A DNA stretch of 20,129 nt from a virus (IMGVR_UViG_3300042905_005097:1-20129); one strand, 5' to 3'. Positions 8,123 to 19,458 are shown, counted from the first letter of the stretch. Translations and numbers: made by a program. The notes: generated by a model from the sequence alone, not told the origin.

Positions 8123-8129
8123 TCAATAT

Positions 8130-8137
8130 TATTTATA
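8130..8137 (-). promoter_or_regulatory. T4-late-type promoter box TATAAATA for the minus-strand block
   Basis: An exact TATAAATA on the minus strand, ending seven bases before the ATG at 8122, with no Shine-Dalgarno sequence between. It sits in the 34-base gap between divergent genes and could drive the block 8122 to 6757. Confidence 0.5.
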
Positions 8138-8141
8138 GATC

Positions 8142-8150
8142 CTAAATAAT
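8142..8150 (+). promoter_or_regulatory. CTAAATAAT box for the rightward gene
   Basis: CTAAATAAT lies six bases before the ATG at 8157, back to back with the minus-strand TATAAATA. It is a weaker version of the late box (TAAATA core). CTAAATA also occurs before the gene at 12592. Confidence 0.3.
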
Positions 8151-8156
8151 TTCAGT

Positions 8157-8351
8157 ATGAATAAAGCAATTTTAGCCCATTTAAATAACCTTTGCGAAAA
8201 GGCTGAAAAGTTACATACCCATAAAATTTCAACCTATAAGCCTCTTTCTCCATTTGCAACCAACAAGGTTAAGAAAATAGAGGAAAAAGTATTGGGGTTC
8301 AAACTCAATAATTTGAATGAAAGTAAATACATTGATGAAACACTTCAATGA
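8157..8351 (+). CDS. 64-aa protein of unknown function
   Basis: Starts MNKAILAHLNNLCEKAEKL, an amphipathic helix with an LCE tripeptide at residues 12-14, and continues with polar, Lys-rich sequence (KVKKIEEKVLGFKLNNLNESK). I do not recognise a family. Its N-terminus resembles that of the next, much larger protein (HFNDLTNKALETKL), and both are similar in style to capsid-targeting sequences. The end overlaps the next gene. Confidence 0.55.
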   Translation: MNKAILAHLNNLCEKAEKLHTHKISTYKPLSPFATNKVKKIEEKVLGFKLNNLNESKYIDETLQ

Positions 8352-11250
8352 CCTGACAAATAAAGCTTTGGAAACAAAGCTTATATCAGATTATACCAGA
8401 TTGTCTGAAGGACGACAACTTTTTATATTTGAAAAAACTTGTGAAATTTTAAATGAAGATGGCGCGGAGATGAGAGCCCGTCAAAGAGAAATGAGGGCTA
8501 AACCAAGAGAACCAGAACAATTTTCACAACCAGTTCGTCCAGAACCAGAACAGGAAAGTTTGTTTGGAAAAGCTGTTGGCACTCTTTCAGATTTGATAAG
8601 AGAAATTCCAAGAGCTGCTGCCCGAGGAGCAGTAGCCACTGCTCCTGACTTTGAATGGGTTGAAAAACAAATGCGTTCATTTGGAATGTTTGGTCCCGGT
8701 CAAGAAAAAATGGGCCAAACTACAAGAGAGCGTGAAGAAAAAGTTACTCAGACTACTGCTGACATAGAAAAGTATCAAAAAGAATTAGAATCAAAGGGCA
8801 TTAAAGGTTGGGAAGGCATTGAAGTTCCTTCTGCAGAAATAGAAGCCTTACAACAATATCAAGCAGCAGAAGGACCAACCCGCCCGGGCGTTCCCAATAT
8901 TCCGACACTACAACGAAAAGCACAATTAAAAGCTTACCAAGAATTCAAAGAAAGAACAACTGGCAAAACAGAAGCAGAGCTTAAAAAGATGTACGGGGAT
9001 GATCCCTCTAAATTTGCTTCAGACGAACAGTTCATGACAAATAAAATGGCAGTTGAGATGATGCCATTAACTACAATTGAAACTAGAGGATCTGGTATTC
9101 CAAGAGGAATTGCTAGTGGTTCTGCAGAAACTTTGAAAAATGTCGGTGAGAATTTACCAACCATTGCAGCAATAGGTGCTGCAGCTGCTGCTGCCCCTGC
9201 TGCTGCAGCTGGTGTTGCTAGACTCACTACTCCACTGCTTCCTGCAGCAGCCAGAGTAGCACCATCTACCGCCAGTGAATTGACACGTCAAGCATTGACT
9301 ACAACTTTTGCTGGAATGGGATTGAAAGATATGGCAACTGCTACAGATCCAGTACAATTGGGTCTTGGTGCAGCAATGGCCGCTCCCGGTGCTAAAACTG
9401 TAGCAAGAGGCGTAGAAGCAGTTAGTGGCGCTCCAGCAACTTATCCTGTTGGTAGAATTCGTCAATTTAATAGAGAACTTGCCAGAGTCACAAGAGGACA
9501 GGAAGAATTTATAGCACGTGCCAAGTCGCAAGAATCGATGGCACAAAGAGAATTAAAAGGTGGTTCTGTTGAAGGAAAGAAAGCTGCAGAACAACCTGAA
9601 TGGTCTACAGATAGCGGAGAAAAGGGAAGACTGGGACAACAAGAGTGGAAGGCAATGAACAGCGAGTTGCTTCGTAGAATTTGGGGAAAAGGTGAAATAT
9701 TTTCTCCTGAAGTTTTAAGACAAGCTGCCAGACAAGCAACCAAAGAAAGAATTGAAGCAGAAACCCCAGAAGTACCTTCAGAAAGAATTAGTCCAAGACC
9801 AGATTTTGCAACAGCAGCACCAACTTTTGATCTTGCTCGTGTTCCTAGGCCAAGAATTGCTACAACAGAAAGAGATAGATTCCAGAGTCAACCTGCTGCT
9901 CCTGTAAAAATTTCTGGAAAAGAAGCTATTGCCAAGGGTGTTGGTGTAATTAAAGGATACGGAGATATTGCTGCTCGGCTTGCAAAAAATATTGAGGCAA
10001 GACTTAAGGCAGCAGTAGAAGGTGGGAGTCCATCTATTGGTTATGAAGTTGCACCAAGAATAAGCCCATCAGTTCCAAAACATTTAAGAACACCAGCAGA
10101 AAAGCCTGCAGTTGGTCCAGTTCAAAGAGGCGTATGGAACGCACAAGACTTTGTAAAGAATATGGTAAAAAATATTCAAAGAGCAAAGGCCGAGCTAGAC
10201 CCAAAGGTATTGGCTGTAAATGCTGCTGCTAATCTTGCAACATTAAATACAATGGTTTTACCAGAGCCAATTGGTCCAAGAATTACTGCCAGAGCCGTAG
10301 AGCCATCTGTTCCAAGTGTACGACAAGAAGTTGCAAAGATTGACACGACTGTTCGTCCCACAGCAGCTTCACAGCCAAAAGCTCCAGAAAAACCTGTTTC
10401 TGGTGTAAGTGTTGAAGCACCAAAACAAGTAAAAACACCATCTAATATGGGTGGCATGAATACTCCGGTTTCTCTGCCCGAATATGAACCTTCCGAAGGT
10501 GGAATGAATGTAGCAGTTACATTGCCAGAATATGATAAGGAAGAACCAAAAGTAGAAAAAGCAACTGGAGGTACACCACCAACAGAGACACTACCAGAAC
10601 CTTCTGAAAGAATTCCTCTTACACTAAAAACTGTAAAGGGATTAGAGATAAAAGCACCAGAAACAACATCTGGAGCTAGAGTCGCTGCTCCTAGTGCTCA
10701 ACCATCATTACCGGAACTACCAAAACAAGTTGCTGTAGCTCCCGGTAGTATTCCTGCTGCAGAAGTTTTACCACAAACAGATGGCCCAGAAAAGATAGCA
10801 ACAAAAACATTTACTAAACTAACAGCAGAACTTCCTTCAGAAATTGGACAATCAAGAGTTGTTGCAAAGGCAGAGCAGCCATCAGTTACAACAGATAAAG
10901 TTGCGCAAGTTGGCAAAGAACAAGTTCCATCTGCCGAGAAAGCACCTGTTGCAGATCTTAAACCATCTACAGCAGCCACAACAGCAGCTGTTGCTGCAAC
11001 AGTATTGAATACTTTAACAAATACTTCTACTGCTGCTGGAGCAACAAAATTTGAAACAATAAAAGATACTAGTGGTCCCGTAAATCCTCTTCCTAAGCCA
11101 AAGAAAGGCGGTGGAGCTGGAGCTGGTGGGCCCGGAATAGAAGTTCCAGAAGAAGAAACCGAAACTACTCGCACAGGAGTTGGAACTGAAGATTGGAATT
11201 TGATTTTGAAAGATATTTACGGGAAATACGCTGCAACTCTCTCTAAATAA
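8335..11250 (+). CDS. Large Ala/Pro/Glu/Lys-rich protein, probably virion-associated
   Basis: 971 residues from the ATG at 8335. An in-frame ATG at 8317 adds six residues, and neither start has a clear ribosome binding site. The N-terminal ~60 residues are helical (MKHFNDLTNKALETKL), followed by an Arg/Glu-rich stretch. A strongly hydrophobic Ala-rich segment lies at about 275-315 (TIAAIGAAAAAAPAAAAGV) and could insert in a membrane. From about 450 to the end the sequence is low in complexity and rich in Pro, Glu, Lys, Ala and Thr, with short repeated phrases such as MGGMNTPVSLPEYEPSE and GGMNVAVTLPEYDKEE. It is likely disordered. The last 25 residues (DWNLILKDIYGKYAATLSK) look ordered. No enzyme motif is seen. 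A packaged or injected protein is my guess. Confidence 0.75.
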   Translation: MKHFNDLTNKALETKLISDYTRLSEGRQLFIFEKTCEILNEDGAEMRARQREMRAKPREPEQFSQPVRPEPEQESLFGKAVGTLSDLIREIPRAAARGAVATAPDFEWVEKQMRSFGMFGPGQEKMGQTTREREEKVTQTTADIEKYQKELESKGIKGWEGIEVPSAEIEALQQYQAAEGPTRPGVPNIPTLQRKAQLKAYQEFKERTTGKTEAELKKMYGDDPSKFASDEQFMTNKMAVEMMPLTTIETRGSGIPRGIASGSAETLKNVGENLPTIAAIGAAAAAAPAAAAGVARLTTPLLPAAARVAPSTASELTRQALTTTFAGMGLKDMATATDPVQLGLGAAMAAPGAKTVARGVEAVSGAPATYPVGRIRQFNRELARVTRGQEEFIARAKSQESMAQRELKGGSVEGKKAAEQPEWSTDSGEKGRLGQQEWKAMNSELLRRIWGKGEIFSPEVLRQAARQATKERIEAETPEVPSERISPRPDFATAAPTFDLARVPRPRIATTERDRFQSQPAAPVKISGKEAIAKGVGVIKGYGDIAARLAKNIEARLKAAVEGGSPSIGYEVAPRISPSVPKHLRTPAEKPAVGPVQRGVWNAQDFVKNMVKNIQRAKAELDPKVLAVNAAANLATLNTMVLPEPIGPRITARAVEPSVPSVRQEVAKIDTTVRPTAASQPKAPEKPVSGVSVEAPKQVKTPSNMGGMNTPVSLPEYEPSEGGMNVAVTLPEYDKEEPKVEKATGGTPPTETLPEPSERIPLTLKTVKGLEIKAPETTSGARVAAPSAQPSLPELPKQVAVAPGSIPAAEVLPQTDGPEKIATKTFTKLTAELPSEIGQSRVVAKAEQPSVTTDKVAQVGKEQVPSAEKAPVADLKPSTAATTAAVAATVLNTLTNTSTAAGATKFETIKDTSGPVNPLPKPKKGGGAGAGGPGIEVPEEETETTRTGVGTEDWNLILKDIYGKYAATLSK

Positions 11251-11251
11251 T

Positions 11252-11280
11252 TTGCGTTAATCTATAATTTTTGGTATAAT
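11252..11280 (+). promoter_or_regulatory. Possible sigma-70-type promoter before the exonuclease gene
   Basis: A perfect -10 box TATAAT (11275-11280) is preceded 17 bases upstream by TTGCGT, which matches TTGACA at three of six positions. The ATG follows nine bases after the -10 box with no Shine-Dalgarno sequence, so the transcript would be almost leaderless. Confidence 0.4.
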
Positions 11281-11288
11281 ATATTTGT

Positions 11289-11969
11289 ATGACTTTGTTA
11301 CCTATTAAAAAATATAATCATAATAAAATTTCTATTGTTGGTTCTTTACAAGAGGAAACAACCGATACAGGTCGTTCATATTCTACGCCAGAAGGAACAT
11401 TTCCTTCTGTAACAACAGTAGTTGGCTTCGAAAAGCAAAAGTTTTTTGCTGAGTGGAGAAAAAAGAATCCAAAAGAAAGTGTACGGGTCACAACCCGGGG
11501 CAATGATTTTCATTCATTGATTGAATCATATTTAAATAATGAGGATATTGATTTTGAATCTTTGATGCCAAACATGTTGGATATCTTTATTAGAATTCAA
11601 CCTTTGTTGCATAAGATTGACAATATTCGAATGATCGAAGCTCCTCTTTGGTCTTCTTTATTGGAACTTGCTGGAAGAACAGATTGCATTGCTGATTATG
11701 ATGGTGAATTGTCGATCATAGATTTTAAGGCAAGCACCAAGGAAAAGAGAAAAGAAGATATTGAAAATTATTTCATGCAAGCAACTGCTTATGCAATGAT
11801 GTTGCAGGAAAGAACCGGAATAAAGGTTAATCAGTTTGTTATCTTGATTTCTTGCGAAGACGGAACCAGTCAAGTATTCATCGACAAACCGATTAATTAT
11901 GTTAAAAAATTAAGTAACATAATCGAAAAATATAAGGAATATAAAAATGCACAGAGAAAGAATAGTTGA
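11289..11969 (+). CDS. PD-(D/E)XK exonuclease, MGME1/RecB-like
   Basis: 226 residues. The family pattern is complete: GTFPSVTTVVG near 36-46, RGNDFHSLIESYL with His75, Glu117 in IEAPLWS, Asp132 in AGRTDCIADY, the IDFKAS motif with Asp145 and Lys147, and Gln164 in YFMQATAYAMM. This order (H, E, D, DxK, QxxxY) is typical of MGME1/Cas4-like single-strand DNA exonucleases in the PD-(D/E)XK superfamily, found in many T4-like marine phages. It probably processes DNA ends in recombination, repair or host DNA breakdown. The gene overlaps its downstream neighbour by 23 bases. Confidence 0.87.
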   Translation: MTLLPIKKYNHNKISIVGSLQEETTDTGRSYSTPEGTFPSVTTVVGFEKQKFFAEWRKKNPKESVRVTTRGNDFHSLIESYLNNEDIDFESLMPNMLDIFIRIQPLLHKIDNIRMIEAPLWSSLLELAGRTDCIADYDGELSIIDFKASTKEKRKEDIENYFMQATAYAMMLQERTGIKVNQFVILISCEDGTSQVFIDKPINYVKKLSNIIEKYKEYKNAQRKNS

Positions 11970-12573
11970 CATCGAAGAACGAGTAAATCGTCGGAACACA
12001 AAATTATGGTTCATGATGAATGAAAATTCAAGATCACATCTTCATCGTGAAAAATTTGTTCAAGACAATGGTGGAATGTTTTATCAAAATGATAAAGGCG
12101 AGTGGCTTTGGAGAAATGATTATATTGTCAAAAACGGTTATTGGTTGAAAAGAAAGGATACTGGCGAGAAAGTGTTCTTTGAGAGCATGAGTGAGTTTTG
12201 CAAGAAAAATGATCTTTCAATCGTAAAAATTTGTGAGATCATGAATGGTAAACGTAAGAGCTATAAGGGGTGGGAGCCTGTTGAAATTAGACCTGTAAAG
12301 GAAACTCCGGGAGCAAGTAGATCTATTGGGGAAAATCCAGCTAATAAGAAGAAGTATGAGATCGTAACCCAAACGGCAATTTTTAAAAATTGGGAAACAA
12401 ATGAGATAGTTTTGGTCACTAATATCCCAGAATTTGCTAAAAAAATTAATGGCCAGAAGAAAGAGCTTTATATGGTAGCCAAGGGGCAGAAAAAATCATA
12501 CAAAGAATGGACTTTGGCAACTTGCAGCACTCCTCCTGCAACCATGAACAAAAAAAATCCTCCCAAGAAGTAA
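11947..12573 (+). CDS. Protein with two NUMOD1-like DNA-binding repeats
   Basis: A 208-residue, Lys-rich protein with a good AAGGA site nine bases before the ATG. Repeat 1 (about 66-110) reads WLKRKDTGEKVFFESMSEF, then NGKRKSYKGWEPVE. Repeat 2 (about 150-193) reads IFKNWETNEIVLVTNIPEF, then GQKKSYKEWTLA. The order 'strand, F/V-x-S/N-M/I-x-E-F, helix, G-K/Q-K/R-KSYKxW' matches the NUMOD1-type module usually found as the DNA-binding tail of HNH or GIY-YIG homing endonucleases. No nuclease domain is visible. The N-terminal third has aromatic, charged sequence (NDKGEWLWRND). It may be a stand-alone DNA-binding protein or a homing endonuclease remnant. Confidence 0.7.
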   Translation: MHRERIVDIEERVNRRNTKLWFMMNENSRSHLHREKFVQDNGGMFYQNDKGEWLWRNDYIVKNGYWLKRKDTGEKVFFESMSEFCKKNDLSIVKICEIMNGKRKSYKGWEPVEIRPVKETPGASRSIGENPANKKKYEIVTQTAIFKNWETNEIVLVTNIPEFAKKINGQKKELYMVAKGQKKSYKEWTLATCSTPPATMNKKNPPKK

Positions 12574-12575
12574 AG

Positions 12576-12582
12576 CTAAATA
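12576..12582 (+). promoter_or_regulatory. CTAAATA box before the 792-aa gene
   Basis: CTAAATA lies nine bases before the ATG at 12592. It has the TAAATA core of the late-type boxes seen elsewhere in this window. No Shine-Dalgarno sequence is present between it and the start codon. Confidence 0.3.
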
Positions 12583-12591
12583 TTATGACAA

Positions 12592-14970
12592 ATGGAATAT
12601 TCACTAAATTTTTTAAAATATCTAGCTGAAGCCGAATCCAAGGACGCAGGGAAGGTCGGTGAATCTGTTCGTAAAGAAACGAGCATGAGCACGGCAACCA
12701 CGGAAAAGTCCAGAGATGCTGCCCGTAAACGAGCCGAACGGGCAAGTAAACCCAAAAAATCTCAACTCCCAAAATCTGAACTTTTAAAGCAAATTTTGCC
12801 AGTAAAAACAAATACTGGTCAGGTGGAATTGATTTATAAAGATTCATATAATTCCAAATATCATCAGATAATAGATCCTCAGTCCGAAACAACTTTAGAA
12901 AAAGCTCAGTCAATTACCAAAGAAGAAAATTTCGTACAAACACAGGCTTCTCAGCAGCTGTTTGGATCTTTGGAAAAGAAAGCTGCGGCTAAACAAAAGA
13001 AAAGAGAAAAAGAAGCAGTGACTGACAATAGATCCTCAGACATGGAAGGGCCAGAACCCGTTCCACAACAATTTACCAAACCAAAGAAAATGAGCATAGA
13101 CGATTTGATTGCCAGCTTTGGTAAAACCGATCCTGTGCAAATGGGGTCAATGCCTTTTGATCTACGTCAAGAATTCTTTTTACAAAATAGAGATCCCATG
13201 TCGGATAAAGAATTCGACAGTCTCTCTTATGAAACAGTTGCAAATCAATTTGGTATTGCTGATATAGATCTTTCTTTCAATGAACAAATAACCAATGCCA
13301 TCGTAACCCTTGCTAGAATCAAGGCTGGTGCTGGCGATCAAGAACTTTCATTCTTGGCAAACATCAAAAATGGTGCTTATACAAAGTTCGGTAAAGAAGC
13401 CTTTGATACCGCCAAGAAAATGTTATCACAGTTTGGCGATCGTTGCATTCAATTGATGGTAACAGCATCTGAAGCTGGTCTGGGAAGCAGCACCCCAGAA
13501 GGAAATGTAGAATTTGCTTGTGACCAAAATAGATTTACTGTAAATGCTCAGGGTGAAATTTCTTTGTCTACTAAAGATTTTACTCAGCACGGTAAGCATT
13601 CTAGATCAACCCTTCAAAGAAGTTTAGCACAAACACTACAAGATCCATCATTGATGCAACAAGATGCAGGTTTTGGGGAAACTTTGTCTGCACTTGGACA
13701 AATGACTGCAAATCTTCCAATGGGCCTTATAGATGATAATTACTTCAGCAAAGCATCAAAAGATCCAGCCATGGCTGCTTTCTTGCAGGCAGAACCTGTT
13801 ATCAGTGCTTCTGGGCAAAATCTAGGACCCATGATGATGCCATCTGGTGAGATGAATCCTGCTATATCATACAAAGTTTTTGAAAAAATGACAAAGAAAA
13901 CTTTGGAAAGATTCATAACCTCGCAGCGTGGAGCCAAAGGAGTATTTACCAAGACATTTATGCAGAATGCTGTCACTAATAAGTTGAGAGGCGATGGCTC
14001 TGTTGTACCAGAAGCAGGACCAACCCATTTGGTCACAGTAGAAGGTTTATTTCCTCTGAGCAATGAATACTTTGCTGCAGTCGCTGCAAATAGCGACATT
14101 TCAATCAAGAGTAATGAAAAAGAATTTGGCCTACAAAAGAGCAAAATAAACAAATTCAAGGTTGTAGTTGAACAAACAGAACAGCCAATGGATCCTGCGA
14201 TGCAAATGGATCCTTATATGCAAATGCGTGAAATGCTTAATATGAACATGATTCCTGTTAATCCTTCGCCAATTGATTTGTTTTCTTCTTTCTTGATGCA
14301 AAACTTCGTAATAGACATGAACTTCAGTTTATTGCCCGGAATGAAACCAAAAGACATTCATGGCGTAGAATACAACAAGATTAAAGTTCATGGAAAGACT
14401 TTCAAGATTCCTGTAGCCAGAGATCAAGAATTGGTTGCAGCATCTTTTGAAGAGAGTTATTTGGTTGCAAACAATCTACTTCTTGAGAGCTTGGAAAATG
14501 ATGACGTATTGCGTGCCTTGTATGAAACAAATCTTTTATCATTTGAAGATGCTCAGATTATAGTAGAAACACGATACGATGGTATAGAAAACTGCAAAGA
14601 TTTAATAGTACCAGTCTTAAATAAAATGTCTTCATTGTTGACTGAATCACCTAACTTGGTCATGAAGTGCGCTGAAAATCTTCAAGAAGCCAAGAAGCGA
14701 AAAAGAAATTATAAAAGAGAATATAAACTTTTTCATGGAAAACCATCTCAGATAAAAAAGAGAGCAGCTAGAGTCAAAGCAAGACGCAAGATGGAGAAAA
14801 AGGGATTAGTTCGCAAAGGTGATGGAAAAGATGTAGATCATAAACGTCCATTGAGAAATGGTGGAACTAGTTCAGACAGCAATATCAGAGTGCGAAGCAA
14901 AAGTGCAAACCGTGCGGACAATGGTAAATATAAAGGTCAGCCAGCAGATAAGCCAAGGACAGACAAATGA
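12592..14970 (+). CDS. Probable capsid-internal protein with C-terminal HNH-like DNA-binding domain
   Basis: 792 residues. The N-terminus MEYSLNFLKYLAEAES closely resembles the capsid-targeting sequence of T4 internal proteins (MKTYQEFIAEA), with a possible prohead-protease site LAE at 11-13. It is followed by a Lys/Ser/Ala-rich stretch to about 165, then a large domain of unknown fold with Met-rich sections (MDPAMQMDPYMQMREMLNM near 532-550). From about 700 the sequence becomes very basic and ends in the domain RAARVKARRKMEKKGLVRKG, then GDGKDVDHKRPLRNGG with Asp749-His750, then NIRVRSKSANRADN. This HNH-like module occurs widely in phages, alone or fused to virion proteins. It may bind or cut DNA inside the capsid. 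It ends ATGA with the next gene. Confidence 0.72.
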   Translation: MEYSLNFLKYLAEAESKDAGKVGESVRKETSMSTATTEKSRDAARKRAERASKPKKSQLPKSELLKQILPVKTNTGQVELIYKDSYNSKYHQIIDPQSETTLEKAQSITKEENFVQTQASQQLFGSLEKKAAAKQKKREKEAVTDNRSSDMEGPEPVPQQFTKPKKMSIDDLIASFGKTDPVQMGSMPFDLRQEFFLQNRDPMSDKEFDSLSYETVANQFGIADIDLSFNEQITNAIVTLARIKAGAGDQELSFLANIKNGAYTKFGKEAFDTAKKMLSQFGDRCIQLMVTASEAGLGSSTPEGNVEFACDQNRFTVNAQGEISLSTKDFTQHGKHSRSTLQRSLAQTLQDPSLMQQDAGFGETLSALGQMTANLPMGLIDDNYFSKASKDPAMAAFLQAEPVISASGQNLGPMMMPSGEMNPAISYKVFEKMTKKTLERFITSQRGAKGVFTKTFMQNAVTNKLRGDGSVVPEAGPTHLVTVEGLFPLSNEYFAAVAANSDISIKSNEKEFGLQKSKINKFKVVVEQTEQPMDPAMQMDPYMQMREMLNMNMIPVNPSPIDLFSSFLMQNFVIDMNFSLLPGMKPKDIHGVEYNKIKVHGKTFKIPVARDQELVAASFEESYLVANNLLLESLENDDVLRALYETNLLSFEDAQIIVETRYDGIENCKDLIVPVLNKMSSLLTESPNLVMKCAENLQEAKKRKRNYKREYKLFHGKPSQIKKRAARVKARRKMEKKGLVRKGDGKDVDHKRPLRNGGTSSDSNIRVRSKSANRADNGKYKGQPADKPRTDK

Positions 14971-16190
14971 CAATGCGTGATAGATTATATAAACAGTTGA
15001 ATGAAAAGGTTTATAGTGATTCGGGACTTGGGAAGTGGTTTAACCGAGAATCTGCTGGCGGTGGTCCGGGTTGGGATAGATATGACAGCACAGGAAAAAG
15101 AGTAGGCAAATGTGGCGATGCCAAAGAAGGCTCTGCTTATGCTGCCTGCTTGAGCAAACAAAAAGCACAGAAGCTTGGTAAAAAAGGAATTGCAAAGTTT
15201 GTCAAAAGAAAAAGAGCAGCACAGGCTGAAAGAGGTCGCGGCAAAAAGGGTGCAGGCGGCAAGGGAATGAAACCCATTTTCGTTGAAACTGGAGCTGCAA
15301 AAAAGGTAGAGGAAAATTTTATGCCAGAAAAATTTATAGTAGAGTCAACTGAAGGACTAAAAAGTTTTTATCCATTAGTAGAAGCAAATGAATTAGAAGC
15401 CTATGACATTTTCATTGATAAAAGAGGAAACTTGTTTGAGGTAAATGATGTTGAAGATGTCGATGGCATTTTAAACATTGATGTTAGATGCCATAATGGA
15501 GTAAACGAAGGTTGCGAAACTATTCTAAAATTAAAAATAAATGAACCTTTTGGTTTGTTTGGCGAAGGTCTCTCCAACATTATCAATGAATGGGGAGAAC
15601 TGGAAGAAAGCGCAGAATCTGGTGGCAAAAAGGTAAAGCTAAACAAGATAATGCGAGGGGATGTAAAGAAGTACAAAGTTTATGTAAAGAATGATAAAGG
15701 TAATGTTGTTAAGGTAAACTTTGGCGATCCTAACATGGAAATTAAGCGCGATGATCCCGCACGAAGGAAAAATTTTAGAGCCAGACATAATTGTGATACT
15801 CCGGGACCACGCTGGAAAGCAAGATATTGGGCTTGCAAGACTTGGAGCAAACAGTCTGTAACTTCAATGCTTAAGGAAGAATCAGAACTGCTAGATGAAG
15901 CTTCAGAAAACAAAGCAAAGAATCCTAAAAAGTGGAGTTCTTGCATTGCTCAGGCAAAAGCAAAGTTTGATGTATATCCTAGCGCCTACGCCAATGCTTG
16001 GGCTGCAAAGTGCTACAAGAAAAAGAAGGGCAAATGGAAGAAAGTTGCAGAAAACTTTGCCAATGAAATTCTAAACAAGAGCATTTTAAAAGAAGAGTCT
16101 AATTTGAAACAATTGGAATCTGCCATGGACAGCAATAAAAATGGTGTTCAGCAGGCAGTTTCTTATCTTAAGCAATTTTTTAACAAATAA
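14967..16190 (+). CDS. Basic multi-module protein (DUF5872-like and related Cys/Trp modules)
   Basis: 407 residues, starting MTMRDRLYKQLNEKVYSD with AAGGA eight bases upstream. Module A (about 20-100) has GLGKWFNRESAGGGPGWDRY, two Cys (GKCGDA, YAACLSKQ) and a Lys/Arg-rich tail (KKGAGGKGMKPIFVETGA). Module B (about 130-205) is acidic and unrecognised. Module C (about 250-290) is FRARHNCDTPGPRWKARYWA, then CKTWS. Module D (about 315-350) is KKWSSCIAQAKAKFDVYPSA, then YANAWAAKCYK, resembling DUF5872. Modules A, C and D recur in large phages and some giant viruses. Their biochemical role is unknown, and high positive charge suggests contact with nucleic acid. An LNE site at 11-13 may be a prohead-protease cleavage point. 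Confidence 0.72.
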   Translation: MTMRDRLYKQLNEKVYSDSGLGKWFNRESAGGGPGWDRYDSTGKRVGKCGDAKEGSAYAACLSKQKAQKLGKKGIAKFVKRKRAAQAERGRGKKGAGGKGMKPIFVETGAAKKVEENFMPEKFIVESTEGLKSFYPLVEANELEAYDIFIDKRGNLFEVNDVEDVDGILNIDVRCHNGVNEGCETILKLKINEPFGLFGEGLSNIINEWGELEESAESGGKKVKLNKIMRGDVKKYKVYVKNDKGNVVKVNFGDPNMEIKRDDPARRKNFRARHNCDTPGPRWKARYWACKTWSKQSVTSMLKEESELLDEASENKAKNPKKWSSCIAQAKAKFDVYPSAYANAWAAKCYKKKKGKWKKVAENFANEILNKSILKEESNLKQLESAMDSNKNGVQQAVSYLKQFFNK

Positions 16191-16193
16191 ATA
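16187..16193 (+). promoter_or_regulatory. Possible late-type promoter box (ATAAATA)
   Basis: ATAAATA overlaps the previous stop codon and lies 17 bases before the ATG at 16211. A TAGGAAA ribosome binding site sits between them, so this box would give a normal short leader. Confidence 0.35.
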
Positions 16194-16210
16194 GATATAG
16201 GAAAAAATTC

Positions 16211-16738
16211 ATGAAATTTAAAGAACTGAACAAAAAATTACAATCCTTGATGGAAATGGGTGGTGGAGAACACACTGAAGGCGGAAGCTTACAAGGTGGT
16301 GATCCAACAGGAAGCCGCAATAGCGCTCTATCTGACTATGGAACCCATCGTCTTGGCAACAATGCAATGCTTGATCGCATTAATGCTTTCCTACATGCTT
16401 ACAGTGGGAAAGAATTCCTAGATCCAGATGGCGCATTGGCTGTCATCAAGAACAAACTCAATATCATTGGATTGGATTTCCGTCCAGTGAAAATGGATCT
16501 CGGCACAAATATAATCAAGCTTTATCAGTACGGCGCTCCCGGACTTGGTGTATTTGGTGTAGCTAAGGATCTAAAGACTGATCTTACTAAGGAACCATTC
16601 TCAAAAACCCCCGGCCTTGATGACAGCTTTGATTATGATCTGATGATTCAAGTAGAGAAGACTCCAAGTCATTTAATTCGTTTTAACATGCAAGTGGTTC
16701 GTAATGGTGAAGAGACAGACTGTGGTTGTGAACACTGA
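16211..16738 (+). CDS. Phage protein of unknown function, probable structural or capsid-associated
   Basis: 175 residues with an AGGA site eight to ten bases before the ATG. The start MKFKELNKKLQSLMEMGGGE is an amphipathic helix with an LME tripeptide at 13-15, followed by a Gly-rich linker (EGGSLQGGDPTGSRNSAL). The remainder is a compact domain with INAFLHAYSGKEFLDPDGAL, IIGLDFRPVKMD, YQYGAPGLGVFGVAK and IQVEKTPSHLIRFNMQVV, and ends DCGCEH. It lies just before a DUF7207-like gene. I do not know the function. Confidence 0.7.
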   Translation: MKFKELNKKLQSLMEMGGGEHTEGGSLQGGDPTGSRNSALSDYGTHRLGNNAMLDRINAFLHAYSGKEFLDPDGALAVIKNKLNIIGLDFRPVKMDLGTNIIKLYQYGAPGLGVFGVAKDLKTDLTKEPFSKTPGLDDSFDYDLMIQVEKTPSHLIRFNMQVVRNGEETDCGCEH

Positions 16739-19266: not shown

Positions 19267-19305
19267 TTAAGCAGCCATCCGCATTGGTGCGGCTTTTGTT
19301 GTTGC
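19267..19305 (-). other. tmRNA tag reading frame, ATTKAAPMRMAA
   Basis: The resume codon GCA at 19303-19305 is followed by eleven codons and TAA. The C-terminal Met-Ala-Ala resembles the Leu-Ala-Ala end of bacterial tags recognised by ClpXP. The TAA lies in the loop of CTGCT-TAA-AGCAG-type pairing (19262-19274), as in Escherichia coli tmRNA. The resume codon lies about 14 bases after PK1, a spacing similar to that in E. coli. Confidence 0.75.
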
Positions 19306-19458
19306 AACTGTTTATTTACGACACTTGTTACCCGTGTCGGGTATCTCCTTCTTCAATACTCTGCACTGATCGATGCCTGTCGGACCCGTAAAGTGGATCC
19401 GGGGAGATTCGAACTCCCGTGTCATATGCATTTCTATCCAATATCAACAATACCGAAA

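Follow-up and report, generated by a model that had tools for sequence, protein, structure and literature searches.

Which proteins of a T4-like phage are carried inside its head, and can a shared N-terminus reveal them? This question is raised by IMGVR_UViG_3300042905_005097:1-20129 (the window, meaning the whole analysed stretch of 20,129 nucleotides), a complete 20.1 kb virus record in IMG/VR and a fragment of a T4-superfamily phage. Genes are named here by their start positions in the window. According to the original prediction, the proteins of genes 8157, 12592, 14967 and 16211 begin with an amphipathic helix followed by an (L/I)xE site, like the capsid-targeting sequences (CTSs) that send T4 internal proteins (IPs) into the prohead and are cut by the gp21 protease. 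Our analysis indicates that 12592, 16211, 14967 and, judging by its family, 8335 probably are late proteins with a capsid-targeting leader that would be cut by a gp21-type protease, leaving the proteins in the head. The tag class is already known from T4; its lengthened form and these protein families are new.

Conservation of the N-Terminal Leaders

All four N-termini contain the (L/I)xE site as described. The helix proposed for them is only ordinary to moderate in amphipathicity, with hydrophobic moments at the 78th–89th percentile of internal 13-mers (65th percentile for the T4 ipIII leader in the same comparison). The [LI]xE motif with E at residues 13–15, a range picked post hoc after the data had been seen, occurs in 6 of the 26 window genes, where internal positions would predict 0.84 (P = 1.5e-4); two of the matching genes, 323 and 3061, lie outside the predicted set. 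Because of the post hoc range and these two genes, the bare motif is mildly above chance and not specific, and an N-terminal LxE count alone, which unrelated genes also satisfy, was rejected as too weak. Therefore, conservation was tested, first in three related phages and then in about 80 IMG/VR loci reached through the 14967 and 12592 alignments.

The aligned N-termini of 12592, 16211 and 14967 keep the site. It is found in 54/54 unique leaders of the 12592 family (shuffled mean 0.25), in 39/40 of the 16211 family (shuffled mean 0.25), where the single exception has the motif one residue further on, and in 50/50 of the 14967 family (shuffled mean 0.15); the related sequences are not independent, which weakens the case, and these shuffle comparisons are therefore not formal probabilities. 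The 12592 leaders, mostly M-N-F-K-x-L-L-x-[KL]-L-x-E-A, vary in length and have E at residue 12 or 13, F or Y as the third residue in 52/54 and A after E in 39/54. Between residues 23 and 620, LxE sites are depleted in this family (2.8 observed, 6.4 expected) and absent from the window's own protein (4.5 expected), which fits a protein exposed to the protease.

The unique 16211 leaders follow the pattern MKFK.LL.K[I]..[LI].E, and only M1, F3, K4, L6 and E15 are invariant among 46 aligned homologues. In the structure model, which has low confidence here, the leader is a lone helix (residues 3–16) followed by a disordered linker. The homologues from Methylophilales phage Melnitz (Melnitz_27) and Pelagibacter phage HTVC008M (gp139) can be aligned only past the leader; their own starts, MKNFKNHIAEE and MKSFKDFQNVNE, are CTS-like. 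The 12592 and 16211 families are unrelated and share the start M-x-F-K-x-L-L...(L/I)xE, which points to one N-terminal code common to both. Thus, the predicted T4-like leader with a gp21-type site has strong backing in these two proteins.

The same cannot be said of 8157. Its relatives read LSK, LGR or LCL at the LCE position, and the protein was rejected as a capsid-targeted member because E is absent in them. Very probably, LCE is a chance match in a protein unrelated to capsid targeting: the conserved core, MN..ILAHLNNL..KA plus YKP.SPF.TNKVQKI, lacks E, although the gene sits just downstream of a late-promoter-like CTAAATA. The latter belongs to back-to-back late-promoter-like sites at 8128–8148, TATAAATA on the minus strand and CTAAATA on the plus strand, which serve divergent genes with very short leaders.

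In turn, the alignments added the 8335 family. Relatives start with MKIFNQLLNE/A, MKNFNDLINE/S and MKNFNQLVNE/S (the slash marks the predicted cut), which is the exact T4 spacing, and contig G002 (IMGVR_UViG_3300025872_000056) with MKNFHELTDQ. F4 and L7 are kept in 5/5 unique leaders.

The case of 14967 is reasonable. Its leaders comprise 7–13 residues of variable sequence, and the sole constant is [LI]xE, abutting the invariant KV[YF]..SGLGKWF domain. It is possible, though somewhat doubtful, that LxE just makes up the first turn of this domain and is no cleavage site: the almost invariant domain start follows E directly, lysine is uncommon after E, and nine other [LI]xE sites occur in the protein. 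Yet the stretch ahead of the domain, free to vary in both sequence and length, always ends in [LI]xE; moreover, the start of the gene overlaps 12592 at its end, and one late promoter serves both. The lysine and the nine other sites make 14967 the least secure of the three members upheld from the original set.

Late Promoters and Prohead Protease

The sequence [ACT]TAAATA, the T4-type late promoter, occurs no more than 60 nt upstream of 84/84 copies of 12592 and 81/81 copies of 16211, compared with 3.5% of background windows. In these relatives, it sits 13–24 nt ahead of the start codon.

A gp21-type protease gene (Peptidase_S77, 2.1e-40) lies beside gp22-like and gp23-like genes on contig G007, which carries the 12592 and 16211 families; similar genes were found on G005 and G006. 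The query for this search was a hand-typed gp21-like sequence, and one match was confirmed afterwards with Pfam. A search for the S77 family in the first four contigs gave no match, but it is uninformative, since no control matched either.

Further genes with near-perfect T4 leaders, e.g., MKSFKEFLEESG, MKKFKEFLAESS and MKSFKQFLIEQS, are present on G006 and G007. The strict pattern was found at 11 real starts in G005–G007, as opposed to 3 of 1879 internal methionines; against the internal-methionine control, the extra CTS-bearing genes give p = 1e-3 for G006 and p = 3e-5 for G007, and their number is not significant for G005. It is very improbable that the shared N-terminal features merely stem from starts rich in lysine and phenylalanine, as AT-rich phage genes generally have: MK or MN starts are common in phage genes and G005 shows no excess of the loose pattern (p = 0.25), but the strict-pattern counts and the position-specific invariance of F3, L6 and E15 argue otherwise. 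A generic helix-plus-ExE pattern was also tried on Melnitz and HTVC008M and discarded, as it gave only a small excess in the gp41–gp61 interval (p = 0.03 and 0.004). Near-perfect T4-type leaders in G005, G006 and G007 (loci L131–L150) include those of DUF6321, DUF5872 and lysozyme-like proteins.

Leaders in Cyanophage Virion Proteomes

In the T4 leader, residues 4 and 7 govern targeting and residues 8 and 10 govern processing, and gp21 cuts after L/I-X-E (PMC9026906). In the published proteome of cyanophage S-CREM2 (PMC10665884, Table 3), all four proteins with the strict T4-type pattern were detected in virions (Fisher p = 0.003): SAM hydrolase (MKDFDSFLEE), a kinase (MKRFDAFLTE), ORF136 (MQTFSMFFSE) and cytidylyltransferase (MKNFSSFLTE). 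The two targeting positions taken by themselves (aromatic 4, hydrophobic 7) are no predictor of which S-CREM2 proteins are found in virions (p = 0.27). For S-CREM2 gp154, the intact N-terminus is MKNFSSFLTEADEK, and ADEKQQQAPK stands directly after the predicted site.

The cytidylyltransferase is a recurrent case. The protein, T4-GC190, has been reported in S-SM1 virions (Sullivan et al., PMC3037559), and an NMNAT-like protein in those of S-SCSM1 (PMC9602691). The virion-detected enzymes start with MKNFSSFLTEA in S-CREM2, MKSFLQFLKEA in S-SCSM1 and MRFRQFIIEA in S-SZBM1 (T4: MKTYQEFIAEA), and homologues of S-ShM2, S-TIM4, S-RIM2, ACG-2014f, DSL-LC02 and P-RSM3 carry the same type of leader. 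The authors of the cyanophage proteomes could not exclude contamination (PMC10665884, PMC9602691). We found no earlier statement linking capsid-targeting leaders to cyanophage virion proteins in the full-text literature, the search covering papers outside subscription.

The S-CREM2 ORF12 (L026, 7704–10313), a virion-detected protein whose annotation and publication name it Cas9, lacks any Pfam match at E 0.05 and contains the CTS-like FASFMAEA at residues 19–26 of the annotated protein. Because of this stretch, its start may be misplaced; the name Cas9 is doubtful.

Weighing the Interpretation

Several observations weigh against capsid targeting and cleavage, besides the lysine and the other LxE sites of 14967. 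The exact T4 ten-residue pattern has no match among the window proteins. The residue after E in 16211 is mostly N (M in the window), not A, and the 14967 leader usually lacks an aromatic residue. The window's own 8335 reads TNK, so E is lost; because of this loss, its protein may be targeted without a cut at residue 10. There are no head genes on the window fragment, and its own protease is therefore unseen. In S-SZBM1 (PMC9146016), only one of three proteins with a slightly relaxed pattern was detected, which makes the pooled test weaker (p = 0.008), and 3 of 10 further cyanophage cytidylyltransferases are without a clear leader (none in P-HM2 and S-CAM3, unclear in S-PRM1).

Some of these points would suit leaders that are conserved helices docking to another virion part or to each other, uncut, with LxE as a part of the helix. 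Such docking would agree with the residue after E in 14967 and 16211, which is not the small one T4 favours, and with the strong conservation of the 16211 leader. We consider it unlikely, as (L/I)xE stays while leader length and sequence vary in 12592 and 14967, A follows E in most 12592 leaders with LxE depleted elsewhere, and a T4-type leader is present on the virion-detected cytidylyltransferases of three other cyanophages.

According to the capsid-targeting interpretation, the first 10–15 residues would form a short helix that binds the prohead scaffold core and has leucines after an aromatic residue at position 3 or 4. The gp21-type prohead protease would cut at (L/I)xE during head maturation, and the cut protein would stay inside the head alongside the DNA and would probably be ejected. 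By strong analogy with T4, we infer targeting and cleavage of the window's own proteins and, weakly, their injection; that the proteins guard or process DNA, either in the head or early in infection, is a guess.

We also tentatively suggest that, in aquatic T4-superfamily phages, a shared and partly lengthened T4 tag may be a general import code, bringing many varied enzymes into the head to be delivered on infection, including the 84-member HNH-ending family of 12592. If so, the first 10–15 residues would predict which proteins of unknown function in these abundant phages ride in the head and are likely to enter the host together with the DNA. This would also explain the recurrent cytidylyltransferase, SAM hydrolase and kinase in cyanophage virion proteomes.

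Comparison with Known Systems

The leaders resemble the T4 CTS (IPI, IPII, IPIII and Alt, cut by gp21) in the N-terminal helix of 10–15 residues, the (L/I)xE site, the late genes, the use of one tag on unrelated proteins and, less clearly, the aromatic plus hydrophobic targeting residues. They differ in that the aromatic residue is usually at position 3 instead of 4, the site lies at 13–15 instead of 10, and E is followed by A (12592), M/N (16211) or K (14967). The 8335 family has F4 and L7, while 12592 and 16211 have F3, L6 and L7, displaced by one. Of the processing features, a hydrophobic residue 8 with E10 and a small residue behind it are found in full only among the relatives of 8335.

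The window proteins are larger than T4 IPs, one of them has an HNH domain, and no homology to IPs was seen: no IP match was found for them in Pfam or PHROGs. They were rejected as IP homologues, given also the large size of 12592 and 14967, which are basic, and the acidic nature of 16211.

The T4-GC190 cytidylyltransferase, or NMNAT-like protein, occupies the same gp41–gp61 interval in Kyanoviridae, has the exact T4-type leader (MKKFSAFLTEA and similar) and is found in virions. It is not encoded in the window; 14967 has only a small domain in common with the Melnitz member. The S-CREM2 virion enzymes (SAM hydrolase, APH-like kinase, ORF12, ORF13 and ORF136) likewise carry T4-type leaders on non-structural virion-detected proteins and differ from the window proteins; within the text searched, the S-CREM2 authors drew no link to a targeting leader. 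The ejection proteins of SPN3US and phiKZ, cut by gp245/gp175, are packaged and cleaved after Glu in a short motif, as proposed here; however, their motif is A/S-x-E and their propeptides are mostly much longer.

Features of the Window

The coordinates are given in Table 1.

Table 1. Leaders, proteins and promoters of the window discussed in the text.
Feature	Position	Strand	Remarks
64-aa protein, rejected member of the original prediction	8157..8351	+	N-terminus MNKAILAHLNNLCE (E14); LCE not conserved
971-aa protein, proposed packaged head protein	8335..11250	+	Open reading frame finder start 8317
T4-type leader MKHFNDLTNK	8335..8364	+	Not in the original prediction; F4 and L7 present; E10, the cut residue, lost
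T4-type late promoter CTAAATA	12576..12582	+	Upstream of 12592
792-aa late protein, proposed packaged head protein	12592..14970	+	About 84 homologues; isoelectric point 9.1 after leader
Leader of 792-aa protein, MEYSLNFLKYLAE	12592..12630	+	Predicted cut LAE/A after codon 13 (E13)
HNH-like endonuclease domain (about residues 701–785) of 792-aa protein	14692..14946	+	HNH fold matches, BFVD, 45–51% identity
407-aa basic protein	14967..16190	+	Isoelectric point 9.5 after leader; start overlaps end of 12592
Leader of 407-aa protein, MTMRDRLYKQLNE	14967..15005	+	Possible cut LNE/K (E13)
T4-type late promoter AATAAATA	16186..16193	+	Upstream of 16211
175-aa late protein, acidic	16211..16738	+	Homologues Melnitz_27 (3.9e-10), HTVC008M gp139 (2.3e-7)
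Leader of 175-aa protein, MKFKELNKKLQSLME	16211..16255	+	Predicted cut after E15

The 792-aa protein matches phrog_4590 (1e-21), and D747, D749, H750, N764 and N773 are conserved in its HNH-like domain. A structure search matched it to a 276-aa protein of cyanophage S-RIM50 (4e-6); Foldseek gave no significant match in the PDB, and a search for homology between 12592 and cyanophage virion proteins found none. The central domain of the 407-aa protein is common to HTVC008M gp131 (7e-25) and the Melnitz cytidyltransferase (1e-13). Its short C-terminal YPSAYA module is also present in S-CREM2 gp160, a virion-detected protein.

The window encodes a gp41-like helicase, a primase, ThyX, a B12-type ribonucleotide reductase and an exonuclease, and its helicase shares 55–57% identity with the cyanophage, Melnitz and HTVC008M enzymes. 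Judging from this gene content and helicase identity, the phage is a member of the T4 superfamily near Kyanoviridae. No DNA-level match of the window to any phage record was found; its close relatives are four IMG/VR contigs. The gene order 16211, 16704, 17138 is the same in HTVC008M and Melnitz, between gp41 and gp61. At about 44–64 kb, G002 contains many short open reading frames on mixed strands, unlike its phage part, and this contig may be chimeric.

A NUMOD/HNH homing-endonuclease-like gene at 11947–12573, flanked by the genes of the exonuclease and the 792-aa protein, is kept in three relatives. A permuted transfer-messenger RNA (tmRNA) gene is located at 19267–19454 on the minus strand (Rfam RF04321, 51 bits); Melnitz also has an annotated tmRNA.

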